The notes under the pieces: model-generated | What the model saw: the letters and a program-made list of their open reading frames with translations, nothing else | Told to the model about the DNA's origin: nothing | Databases searched by the model: none | In this document: positions 47,377 through 51,993 of the stretch, piece by piece | Layout: each line of letters begins with the position of its first letter | Position numbering within the stretch: position 1 is the first letter of the stretch | Program-made: the position numbers and the translations under genes | Source: Acidobacteriota bacterium | GTDB taxonomy: Bacteria; Acidobacteriota; Aminicenantia; Aminicenantales; Saccharicenantaceae | Direction: 5' to 3' | NCBI GenBank assembly: GCA_039683095.1 | Contig: JBDKSB010000003.1 | Location: 62,001 to 126,000, forward strand | DNA: 64,000 nt

Positions 47377-47727
47377 TCAGCAATCAATCCAAAGATAGTA
47401 AAGGCTCAAAGGGCCGACCTTGCCGCCGCCGAGACCGCTGTAGATCAGGATGTAGCACCGGTTGTCGCAACAGTTCGGGCAATCGCATCTCTCCGGGACC
47501 GGGCCGGCGGCCACGGGAACGAGCCTCGCGATCTTGCGGACGACGCCGTCGTAAGTCACGTACTTCGCCGTCGAAGGCACGAAGGCGATGTCCGGCCCGT
47601 GGACCTCGACGAGGGGACCGATGGCCCCGGCCGCGGCCGGCGGGTCGTTCTGCTGGACGCCCGAGACGATCCCGAGAAAGAGCACGTCGAAGAGCACCAG
47701 GAAAAGTCCGACTCCATTCTTTTTCAT
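47377..47727 (-). CDS. Small exported Cys-rich hypothetical protein
   Basis: 116 residues. One N-terminal hydrophobic segment (GVGLFLVLFDVLFLGIVSG) as signal or anchor, a middle beta-rich part and a Cys cluster CDCPNCCDNRC at about 82-92. No family recognised. GGAGGG lies before ATG47727. Five Cys in eleven residues suggests metal or disulfide binding outside the cytoplasm. The 100 bases between it and the Cys/His gene hold nothing I recognise. Confidence 0.6.
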   Translation of the reverse strand: MKKNGVGLFLVLFDVLFLGIVSGVQQNDPPAAAGAIGPLVEVHGPDIAFVPSTAKYVTYDGVVRKIARLVPVAAGPVPERCDCPNCCDNRCYILIYSGLGGGKVGPLSLYYLWIDC

Positions 47728-47838
47728 TGGCTTCCCTCCTGAGGATATTGGCATCTCTCCTGATGATAAAGACACTCGGCCGGGCCTTTTCTCGTCGCCG
47801 CAAAAAAATATTTTTTCCAGGGGCTAAATGGGGTCGGC

Positions 47839-47867
47839 TTGCCGGTGACGCCGTTTTTGCCTAGAAT
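47839..47867 (+). promoter_or_regulatory. Promoter of the TPR-CHAT gene
   Basis: TTGCCG (47839-47844), 17-bp spacer, TAGAAT (47862-47867). The transcription start would fall near 47874, just before GGAG at 47880. The ATG at 47866 lies inside the -10 box and cannot be the start. Confidence 0.6.
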
Positions 47868-47890
47868 GGCGGGATTACCGGAGAAGGCTT

Positions 47891-50788
47891 ATACAAAAAA
47901 TAGCATTTTTCATCCCCAAGCCGAGGATCCGGGCGCTCGCCGCCCTGGTCATCGCCGGGACCAGTCTGTTCGCCTTTCCCAAGAGCGGCCCTGGGGTCGG
48001 GTCCGGCGAGGCGGAACCGGCCTTCCTGGCGGAAGGCGCGGCCCTGGTCGAGAAAGGGGCCTACGAAGAGGCCATCGCCTATTTCAAGGAAGGCCTCTTA
48101 CGGCCTGATGCGAGGACCTCCGAAAGGGCCCGCATCTATCATTTACTCGGCTACCTCCTCCTGTATGTAGACCGGAATGAGGAAGCCATTCAGAACACGC
48201 ACGTCGCGCAAAAGTGGGCAATCGAATACGGGCTAAAGGCCGAAAACGCCGAGTTCAAGGCCGAATCGGCCATCATCCAAGCCTACATTCGGGCTCTCGC
48301 CCTCCGGAGCTCGCGCGACATCCCCGGCTCCAACGCAAAATTCGAGGAAGCCTTTCGGCTGGCCGGAACAGACGCGGGCCGGCCCTACCGGCTCAAGATC
48401 GCCGGATCCTGGAGCGTCAACTATACGACCTCAAAGGACGGGCAAGCAAAATATCTTGACCTCAACTTACGGGCCCTTGAACTGGCGACCACACTTAAGT
48501 ACAAACTCGAGGCCTCCCGGGCCGCAAATAAGGTCGGCGCGTATTACGCCATGAGAAGCGATTATTCCCGGGCCCTCAGCTTCTTTCTGAATGCCCTGAA
48601 TTATTCAAGAGATGTCCCGGACAACGGGAACCTGATCGGATGCTTGAACAACGTCGCCGGGATGTACAGCTCCCTGGGGGACTATGTCAAGGCGAAAGAC
48701 TATCTTCTGGCCGCTTTTTCGCTCCTGCCAGAAGGCTCGACGAGGGCTTTCGATTCTTCGGTGCTCCTCAATCTTGGCACCCTGTTCTACGGCCTGGGGA
48801 AGCGTCTGCAGTCCGATGACTTCCTGCAGAGGGCCCTGGACTGCTTCGGTTCCTTCCTCGAACTCAAGAGCGTGCCGGGGGGCGGGCCTCTCCGCCTGGA
48901 CGCGCTGGCCGGAATGGCGGCCGTTTATATCGACCAGGGCCGCGCAGATGAGGCGCGGAGGATCCTCGCGCCCGCCCTCGGGGAGGCCATAAAAACGAAC
49001 GCCCCGTCCCTCACCGCCGGCAAGATCCATGCCCTGTCGGGGAGCTTGTCGCTGCGGACCGGAAACGTCCCCGAAGCCAGGACGCATTTCGAGGAGACTG
49101 GTTCCATATCCGAACGGACCGGAAGCCCTCTCCTGAAGGCGGACGCCGCTTTCGGCCTGGGCCGCTGCGCCGAAGCGCTCGGGGACTACGGCCAGGCCAT
49201 CGAGAACTACGAGCATGCCCTTGAGATCGTCGGCGAAGGGTTCTCCGGCATCGTCAGCGATATCCAGCGGGCCGAATTCATCGGGACGACCCTCAAGCCC
49301 TTTCAGGCCCTGATCGGCCTCTATCTCAAGCTGTCCAGGACGGAGAACAGCGACATCTATGACCGCGAGATGTTCCGCCTGTCCGAGTATCTGAGGGCCA
49401 GGTCCTTCCGGGAGTTCCGGGACAGGCTGTCCAGGAATCCGCCGCCCCCTGCGGGAGCGCCGGAGGGACCAGACGAGGCGGCGCTCAACCGGGAACGGAC
49501 CGGGCTGCTGAAGTCGCTGTCTCAGGGAGGCCTCGGCGGGGATAAGCGGGAGCGGATCAGGGCCAGGCTGATCCAGCTCGACGACCTGCTGGACGCCGGG
49601 ATCCTCGACAGATACGGCCCGGCCGACCCGACCATCAGGTCTCCCAAGCCCATGTCCCTCGATGTCCTTCAGGGCCGGGTCCTGGACGACCGCACGGCCG
49701 TCCTCGAGTACCTCCTGGGGGAGTCGGCGTCGGTCCTTTTCTGCGTCACCAGGCATTCCCTGCGCCTCATCGAGCTGCCTCCGGCCCGCGGCATCAGGAA
49801 CGCCCTGACGGGTTATCTGGCCTTCCTCGAGGACCCGTCGATGCCCGTGGGGAAGGGGCTCCCCGCGGCCAAGCGGCTTTACAGAACCCTGCTTGAGCCC
49901 GCGGAGCCGTTCCTGCCGGCCCGGGTGGACCGGCTGATCGTTATCCCAGACGGGATGCTCTTCCGGCTGCCGTTCGAGGCCCTGGCCCTGCCGGCGGCGG
50001 AGGCGGCGAAACCGGTCTATGTCAACGACCGCTTCACCGTCTCCTACGCGCCCTCCGCCTCGTCGCTGGAGCTTCCCGGGACGGCTCAGGAAGTCCAATA
50101 CGCCAAGAGCGCGCTCGCGTTCGGCGTTTCGAAGTACCCGCGTCCGAACCGCCTCAGCGCGCAGGCGGCGCCTCTCTCGCCGAGCGCCATCCTCGACGAC
50201 ATCTACGGCCGGCGGGGCTTCGAGATCGGCTCCCTGCCCCACGTCGGGGAGGAGATCGCCGACCTGGCCCGGAGGCTCGGCCCGGGCAAGATCGACGCCT
50301 ACGAGGGACCGCAGGCGACGGAGAAGGCGCTGAAGGGGCTCGATCTCAAGGCCTACCGGCTCATCCACCTGGCCTGCCATGCCTTCTCCGACGACAATAA
50401 CCCCTTGAGGTCGGCGCTCCTGCTGGCGCCCGGGGACGGCGACGAGGAGGACGGCTATCTCCAGGTCTCCGAGATGTACAACCTGGGGACCAACGCGGAC
50501 CTGGTCGTACTGTCCGCCTGCCAGACGGGGAGGGGCACGATCGTCATGAACGAGGGCAACCTCGGCCTGCCGCGGGTTTTCTTCTATATGGGCGCCCGGT
50601 CGGTCCTGTCGACGCTATGGCCGGTCTACGACAACGCCGGGGCCGCCTTCATGAAGAGCTTCTACGACGCCTATTTCGGCGGCCAGGGCGAGGCCGAGGC
50701 CGTTCGGGCCGCGAAGAAGGCGATGCGGGAGAAGGGATTCTCGCATCCCTTTTTTTGGGCGCCCTACGTGCTGACGGGCGGGTTCTAG
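47891..50788 (+). CDS. Exported TPR-CHAT protease-like protein, apparent AUA start
   Basis: About 965 residues. The frame that ends at 50788 stays open to 47849 but has no ATG, GTG or TTG until 48551, in the middle of the TPR region. Read from ATA47891, seven bases after GGAG, it gives MQKIAFF...PKPRIRALAALVIAGTSLFA, a good signal peptide. TPR-like helices follow (about 45-500: GAYEEAIAYFKEGL, GDYVKAKDYLLAAF, GDYGQAIENYEHAL). The CHAT caspase-like domain is about 640-965 with His830 (HLACHA) and Cys877 (LSACQTG). Convergent with the anti-sigma gene, four bases apart. A sequencing indel instead of AUA is the main alternative. Confidence 0.82.
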   Translation: MQKIAFFIPKPRIRALAALVIAGTSLFAFPKSGPGVGSGEAEPAFLAEGAALVEKGAYEEAIAYFKEGLLRPDARTSERARIYHLLGYLLLYVDRNEEAIQNTHVAQKWAIEYGLKAENAEFKAESAIIQAYIRALALRSSRDIPGSNAKFEEAFRLAGTDAGRPYRLKIAGSWSVNYTTSKDGQAKYLDLNLRALELATTLKYKLEASRAANKVGAYYAMRSDYSRALSFFLNALNYSRDVPDNGNLIGCLNNVAGMYSSLGDYVKAKDYLLAAFSLLPEGSTRAFDSSVLLNLGTLFYGLGKRLQSDDFLQRALDCFGSFLELKSVPGGGPLRLDALAGMAAVYIDQGRADEARRILAPALGEAIKTNAPSLTAGKIHALSGSLSLRTGNVPEARTHFEETGSISERTGSPLLKADAAFGLGRCAEALGDYGQAIENYEHALEIVGEGFSGIVSDIQRAEFIGTTLKPFQALIGLYLKLSRTENSDIYDREMFRLSEYLRARSFREFRDRLSRNPPPPAGAPEGPDEAALNRERTGLLKSLSQGGLGGDKRERIRARLIQLDDLLDAGILDRYGPADPTIRSPKPMSLDVLQGRVLDDRTAVLEYLLGESASVLFCVTRHSLRLIELPPARGIRNALTGYLAFLEDPSMPVGKGLPAAKRLYRTLLEPAEPFLPARVDRLIVIPDGMLFRLPFEALALPAAEAAKPVYVNDRFTVSYAPSASSLELPGTAQEVQYAKSALAFGVSKYPRPNRLSAQAAPLSPSAILDDIYGRRGFEIGSLPHVGEEIADLARRLGPGKIDAYEGPQATEKALKGLDLKAYRLIHLACHAFSDDNNPLRSALLLAPGDGDEEDGYLQVSEMYNLGTNADLVVLSACQTGRGTIVMNEGNLGLPRVFFYMGARSVLSTLWPVYDNAGAAFMKSFYDAYFGGQGEAEAVRAAKKAMREKGFSHPFFWAPYVLTGGF

Positions 50789-50792
50789 CGGG

Positions 50793-51479
50793 CTATTTCC
50801 GGACCGAGAACTCGGACAGCTTCGAAGCCAGCTCCTGTCCGTCCTCCAGGACGGCCGTGACCCTCCAGAAATATGTCTGGCCCGCCGGAACGGCGTCCCG
50901 CGCCTCCTCGGGGAGCTTCAGGCGGGTTTCCGTGACCGGGTCGCTCTGCCAGGTCTTTTGCAGGGACTGGTCGAAGATCTCCACGACATAGCGCACGGCC
51001 CTGGGCGCGGGCTCCCATTTGAACTCGATCTCGCCGGCGGCGACCGAAGCCTCGTTCTTGGGGACGATGAGCCGGACCTGGGTCTCCGAGACGCCCCGGA
51101 TGACGGGCCGCTCGGTCAGCCGGATCACCGAATAGGTGACGATGGCGAGCCCGGCCAGCCCCGCCAGGGCCGCGACGGCGGCCCTCCGGCCGACGGACAA
51201 CCGCGCGCCTTCACCGGCGAACCGCGTCCGACGGGCAGGGGCGTCGGCCAGGATGCCGTCCAATTCGGCCGAGAGCCGGAGAGCCGATCGAACGAGAAGG
51301 GCGCAGTCGCGGCAGCCGGCGACATGGTCCAGGAGCCTCGAGCGCTCTTTCCGGCGCGCCTCATCGGTGACCAGCCGGACCAGGTCATCGGGAGCCGGGC
51401 ATCCCGCGCCGGGTTCGGCTCCTTTCTCCGCCAGGCAGGCCCAATAGGCCGCCATCAGCCCGGACATGTCAGTCTTCAA
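50793..51479 (-). CDS. Zinc-finger anti-sigma-like membrane protein
   Basis: 228 residues from TTG51479 (AGGGGGA a few bases upstream) or 224 from ATG51467. A ZAS motif HxxxCxxC (DHVAGCRDC at about 51-59) is followed by one membrane helix (about 98-118) and an outside FnIII-like domain (about 135-228, GEIEFKWEP...QTYFWRVTAVLEDG). It overlaps or abuts the ECF sigma stop, the usual sigma-anti-sigma pairing, so it should hold the sigma factor inactive at the membrane until a signal arrives. Confidence 0.82.
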   Translation of the reverse strand: MKTDMSGLMAAYWACLAEKGAEPGAGCPAPDDLVRLVTDEARRKERSRLLDHVAGCRDCALLVRSALRLSAELDGILADAPARRTRFAGEGARLSVGRRAAVAALAGLAGLAIVTYSVIRLTERPVIRGVSETQVRLIVPKNEASVAAGEIEFKWEPAPRAVRYVVEIFDQSLQKTWQSDPVTETRLKLPEEARDAVPAGQTYFWRVTAVLEDGQELASKLSEFSVRK

Positions 51480-51993
51480 GGTCGATCCCCCTTTTTCCCA
51501 GTATATCCTTCAAGTCGGCGATGCCGCGATAATAGGTGCTCTGGGCCCTCCGGAGGGACCAGGAATGGAGCCGGGCGATCTCCTCGAAGGAGAATCCCTC
51601 GAGGCGAAGCTCGAGGACCCGGCGCTTGGCGGCCCCGACGCTCCCGAGCGATTCGCGAACGACCTCCTTCAGCATGTCCATCGCTCCCGGCCGGGCCCGC
51701 CCGTATCCATCGATGCGAGACTCGTCGGTCTTGGCCGCGTCGAAGATCTTTTTCTCACGGTTGGTCTTCTGTCCTTCATTGATAAAGACAGACAAAACCA
51801 CCTTTTTTACATAGGCGTTGAAAAAAATAATTTTTTTCCCCTGGTTCTCCCTGAGAACCTGCCAGATCCTCAGGCGGATCTCCTGGAGCAGGTCGTCCCT
51901 CTCGGGGGAAGGCGCGGCGCAGCCGAGGGCCCTGAGCTCCGAGATCAGGAAGGGCGTCAGCGAATCGAGAATATCTTCTATGGATTCCGGCAT
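51469..51993 (-). CDS. ECF-type RNA polymerase sigma factor
   Basis: 174 residues. Region 2 (DDLLQEIRLRIWQVLREN...FFNAYVKKVVLSVFINEGQKTNREKK) and region 4 (LGSVGAAKRRVLELRLEGFSFEEIARLHSWSLRRAQSTYYRGIADLKDIL) are separated by a linker. It would direct RNA polymerase to its own promoters when released by the adjacent anti-sigma. ATG51993 is preferred to ATG52026, which lies inside the -10 box. Confidence 0.85.
   Translation of the reverse strand: MPESIEDILDSLTPFLISELRALGCAAPSPERDDLLQEIRLRIWQVLRENQGKKIIFFNAYVKKVVLSVFINEGQKTNREKKIFDAAKTDESRIDGYGRARPGAMDMLKEVVRESLGSVGAAKRRVLELRLEGFSFEEIARLHSWSLRRAQSTYYRGIADLKDILGKRGIDLED

Follow-up and report, generated by a model that had tools for sequence, protein, structure and literature searches.

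Bacterial genes that start at AUA are rare and already known, and the TPR-CHAT protease gene described here would add one more case. In E. coli, infC and pcnB start at AUU, as does cvfC1 of S. aureus, and initiation factor IF3 discriminates against AUA-type starts. Natural AUA starts have been described in S. aureus for infC, for ccpN and, in one lineage, for citZ; reporters with non-canonical starts reached ~10-30% of their AUG versions, and extended Shine-Dalgarno sequences precede the non-canonical starts of infC, cvfC1 and ccpN (PMC13009471). In Listeria, translation of rsbW persists at a reduced level after an ATG-to-ATA change, and fixed non-canonical starts are found in 6 of 2265 conserved genes (PMC13068326). 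A described TPR-CHAT protein, Csx29 of the type III-E CRISPR system Craspase, cleaves the sigma inhibitor Csx30 (PMC10028731).

The window, a stretch of 64,000 nucleotides from an uncultured Acidobacteriota bacterium, carries a TPR-CHAT gene whose frame has ATA where its closest orthologues have ATG. The best reading, which we hold with moderate confidence, is that ATG recently became ATA in an intact gene, which is still weakly initiated at the AUA. Output of the protease is then probably low or nil.

A TPR-CHAT gene with no canonical start near its 5′ end

The stop-to-stop frame of the gene (47849-50788, forward strand) is open over 979 codons. As expected of a TPR-CHAT protease, its product combines a hydrophobic signal-peptide-like segment, N-terminal TPRs and a CHAT domain with His (HLACHA) and Cys (SACQTG) motifs. 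The sequence-only reading had pointed out that ~660 bases of TPR coding contain no ATG, GTG or TTG in frame, and that an annotation starting at ATG48551 would drop the signal peptide and the first TPRs; both observations stand, since 217 coding codons precede ATG48551, the first canonical start. Past this codon, ATG, GTG and TTG make up 2.7% of the frame (20 of 745 codons), which predicts ~5.8 for the first 217 codons; the chance of finding none there is ~0.003. A gene with an AUH start should lack a canonical in-frame start codon close to where its coding begins, and this gene does.

How unusual this is was judged with a codon-usage model trained on sampled stretches, 144 kb from the gene's own contig and 180 kb from its syntenic counterpart in the relative G002. 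The model replaced a comparison of starts in translated frames, which was swamped by shadow frames in this genome of 68% G+C. Coding signal in the TPR-CHAT gene runs from ~47909 on, and 72.8 nats over 214 codons lie before its first canonical start, by far the largest such loss among 133 modelled genes (C3:22001-166000). The second largest, 19.6 nats, belongs to a gene that runs off the sampled stretch, and no remaining value exceeds 6.6, so no other internal gene among the 133 in these 144 kb resembles it. In the G002 control, the loss exceeds 5 in 3 of 161 modelled genes, two of them cut by the ends of the sample and one shadow-frame-like.

Table 1. Coordinates of the features discussed. Positions without a locus label are those of the window; L003 and L004 are the orthologues in G002 and G050.
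Feature	Position	Strand	Basis or remark
Divergent 116-aa protein, signal-peptide-like N-terminus	47377..47727	-	65% identity in G002; no Pfam family
Sigma-70-type promoter TTGCCG-17-TAGAAT	47839..47867	+	1 found, 0.1 expected in shuffles
Weak Shine-Dalgarno-like GGAGAAGG	47880..47887	+	Sequence; not conserved in L003
ATA proposed by the sequence-only reading	47891..47893	+	Best GGAG spacing, but TCA in L003
ATA at the orthologous position, likeliest start	47900..47902	+	ATG in L003 and L004
TPR-CHAT protease CDS, 962 aa	47900..50788	+	Pfam PF12770 E 1.6e-65, TPR families; orthologues; dN/dS
First in-frame ATG of the TPR-CHAT gene	48551..48553	+	217 coding codons upstream
Putative membrane anti-sigma-like protein (convergent), one TM segment, Ig/FN3-like C-terminal part	50793..51479	-	Conserved in G002; weak Pfam matches
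ECF-like sigma factor	51469..51993	-	Pfam Sigma70_r4_2 E 9e-6, just under cut-off
T9 tract	L083:2061-2069	+	Identical, out-of-frame, signal-peptide region
T9 tract	L039:4352-4360	-	Identical, out-of-frame, signal-peptide region
T9 tract	L079:1593-1601	+	Identical, out-of-frame, signal-peptide region

The start codon and its upstream signals

The closest orthologue, L003 of G002, is 66% identical, followed by L004 of G050; two scans of the genome contigs gave none closer than that of G002, the only close match, L152, being taken as the same assembly as G002:C8. In both orthologues an ATG aligns without gaps to ATA47900, placing an AUH codon at the orthologous start position, and the window and L003 are similar from this very codon on, with no similarity upstream. 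Because of these two observations, ATA47900 is most likely the start codon. The sequence-only reading had proposed ATA47891, noting correctly that GGAG (47880-47883) lies 7 bases ahead of it, but its counterpart in L003 is TCA. On homology, ATA47891 is thus rejected as the primary start despite the best Shine-Dalgarno spacing, while the sequence-only proposal that an AUA start limits translation remains the best reading once moved 9 bases downstream. The choice between the two leaves the frame unchanged and makes a difference of 3 residues. The sequence-only reading had also set an ATG at this codon in homologues as the test of a local mutation, and such ATGs are found, at 47900; the ATA is therefore a change specific to this lineage rather than a regulatory start that relatives conserve.

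The promoter whose -10 box had been placed as ending at 47867 is the sole promoter-like match in 47700-48000, and L003 has identical elements with identical spacing. An extended Shine-Dalgarno is absent at the TPR-CHAT start, where GGAGAAGG provides only GGAG, 7 nt from ATA47891, and AAGG, 12 nt from ATA47900. Because there is no strong Shine-Dalgarno, the efficiency of the AUA may be low or negligible here, and the fact that the weak motif is better spaced to 47891 than to 47900 counts against our explanation. RNA folding predicted nothing unusual for either 5′ end.

We propose that a single G-to-A substitution turned ATG into ATA at 47900 in an otherwise intact gene for a secreted protease. 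The transcript would begin just past the conserved promoter, and initiator tRNA would initiate inefficiently on AUA, probably helped by GGAGAAGG just upstream, with the in-frame AUA at 47891 as a possible further initiation site. Discrimination by IF3 would then lower protein output to between roughly a tenth and a third of that from AUG, by analogy with the S. aureus reporters, or to less given the weak Shine-Dalgarno. We infer the reality of the base, the use of the AUA and its efficiency alike.

Selection on the gene and its neighbours

The stretch of 217 codons ahead of ATG48551 is plainly coding and evolves under purifying selection, as judged from its comparison with the G002 orthologue (dN 0.35, dS 0.93, dN/dS ~0.37; ~0.36 for the whole gene). 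When amino-acid changes are polarised by the outgroup G050, the window lineage receives 58 and the ATG-bearing G002 69, and there is no stop or frameshift in the 962 codons. With low dN/dS and no excess of amino-acid changes there is no visible decay, which leaves a functional AUA or a very recent change. The G050 orthologue (G050:C168) lies in two frames split near codon 630, a frameshift of the genome or of its assembly. Next to the TPR-CHAT gene, the convergent pair of anti-sigma-like and ECF-like sigma genes (50793-51993) recalls the relation of Csx29, Csx30 and CASP-sigma.

Weak initiation, silencing or error

The ATA is not common to relatives, since both orthologues have ATG, and a codon unique to this lineage could have arisen very recently, lack function or be an error. 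Among the alternatives to weak initiation, the one that survives best, though we consider it unlikely, is a genuine ATG-to-ATA change that in effect shuts the gene off, leaving a fresh pseudogene too young for decay. Poor initiation is indeed expected from an AUA whose Shine-Dalgarno is weak and badly spaced, the ATA is seen in this lineage only, and the gene looks dispensable, its N-terminal part being unmatched in 9 of 13 genomes of the genus. The intact reading frame and the polarised changes described above speak against silencing.

It is improbable, to a similar order, that the organism truly has ATG at 47900 and that the ATA is a single G-to-A error of the consensus. One base would restore the codon that both relatives carry, and the window's genome assembly is incomplete (95% complete, 13 contigs). 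Against this, frameshift-split genes are absent, in either direction, among the 118 shared genes on this contig. This points to a good consensus, but the count is a test of indels, not of substitutions. A real base change is more likely than a base error because the Listeria rate implies that a few real non-canonical starts are to be expected per genome. The same count bears directly on the assembly indel that the sequence-only reading had offered as its other explanation: together with the ungapped alignment of the start region and the first 217 codons to the orthologue, it leaves an indel unsupported and unneeded.

Two further readings fare far worse. Translation only from ATG48551, the first canonical start, giving a cytoplasmic TPR-CHAT protein without signal peptide, is very improbable in view of the selection on the 217 codons upstream and of the orthologues' ATG at 47900. 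Hardly credible is a start at the out-of-frame ATG47866 with frameshifting or slippage on the A6 run (47895-47900) into the TPR-CHAT frame: this ATG opens a frame up to 48108, an in-frame ATG occupies the matching place in L003 and slippage-like 5′ ends with T9 occur in distant TPR-CHAT genes (below), but ATG47866 overlaps the conserved -10 box and is not expected in a transcript from this promoter, 47866-47899 has no similarity to L003, and A6 is short for slippage.

Starts of infC and of other TPR-CHAT genes in the order

That AUH codons can serve as starts in this clade is indicated by infC. In the window's genome (G000:C12:1235624-1235833, L154) it starts at ATT behind AGAGGAGG (AGGAGG); infC of G003 and G004 likewise has ATT behind AGGAGG, and ATT or ATC is found in other genomes of the order. 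AUH starts are therefore decoded in the clade, and by analogy with E. coli we infer that they are sensitive to IF3.

Across the order, a script checked ~90 TPR-CHAT genes whose 5′ end is closed for a canonical start ahead of the hydrophobic segment. Apart from the window gene, one lacks it: in the distant gene of G038 (L009, G038:C24, position 1348) no ATG, GTG or TTG precedes the signal peptide, and the sequence GAGGTGAGTC-ATT-TATAAAAAA, with ATT behind GAGGTGA, is a strong candidate for an AUU start. Among 178 sampled genes of this genome, in which the TPR-CHAT and infC loci were included on purpose, only these two combine the lack of a canonical start near the coding boundary with an AUH codon preceded by a strong Shine-Dalgarno. 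The ATT of the G038 TPR-CHAT gene resembles the AUH codon at which infC of G038 starts. The TPR-CHAT gene of G049 (L010, G049:C7, reverse strand) may start at ATC behind GGGAGG, its sole canonical alternative being a TTG without Shine-Dalgarno. An extension to 7 further readable genes at class level gave a canonical start near the hydrophobic segment in 6, with L230 masked. One or two non-canonical cases in ~90, leaving out the window as it was picked for its anomaly, are suggestive, not significant. Two convergent TPR-CHAT genes ~1.5-3 kb apart occur in many genomes of the order (G044:C32, G048:C36, G086:C55 and others).

The orthologues of G067, G084 and G065, members of another subfamily (~60% identical), have a different arrangement. 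There, the first half of the signal peptide is encoded from an out-of-frame ATG, whose frame enters the identical TTTTTTTTTAA with its T9-AA tract and stops at the TAA directly after this tract; one extra U or a -1 shift would join this frame to the TPR-CHAT frame. Transcriptional slippage at nine T has been documented in bacteria (PMC1088944), and the T9 tract is a candidate for programmed slippage or phase variation.

A broader idea, to which we give only tentative credence, is that the secreted TPR-CHAT proteases of the order are repeatedly held back at the gene start by unrelated devices, namely AUA here, AUU in G038, perhaps AUC in G049 and the T9 slip, selection keeping a dangerous protease low, partly via IF3. 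The AUA of the window, the AUU of G038 and the T9 orthologues make a testable case for such proteases throttled at initiation.

Comparison with known systems

Gene finders that accept only ATG, GTG and TTG would start this protein at 48551, so that a secreted protease would be called cytoplasmic. A genuine AUA would mean that the start codon of an intact protease gene changed naturally and recently, beside a sigma/anti-sigma pair, where dose may matter.

The gene would share with infC, ccpN, cvfC1, citZ and pcnB a non-canonical AUH start in an intact gene. The starts of ccpN and cvfC1 are conserved and have an extended Shine-Dalgarno, whereas the TPR-CHAT gene has a weak one and its relatives use ATG; similarly, the non-canonical start is conserved in relatives for infC and ccpN, but not for citZ or the TPR-CHAT gene. 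S. aureus citZ, with its lineage-specific AUA, is thus a like case. The L. monocytogenes rsbW mutants share one G-to-A change at the start codon of an intact gene, a change deduced here from the ATG of the relatives. They concern a different gene, came from laboratory acid selection, were measured and also occur in two natural strains.

As to the protein, the likeness to Csx29 lies in the TPR and CHAT parts and in the genes for a sigma factor and a putative sigma inhibitor nearby. By analogy, a natural guess would be that the TPR-CHAT protease cleaves the putative anti-sigma protein. The protein described here differs from Csx29 in being secreted-looking and in lying beside a putative membrane anti-sigma protein, and its N-terminal signal-peptide-like segment argues against membership in a type III-E Craspase.
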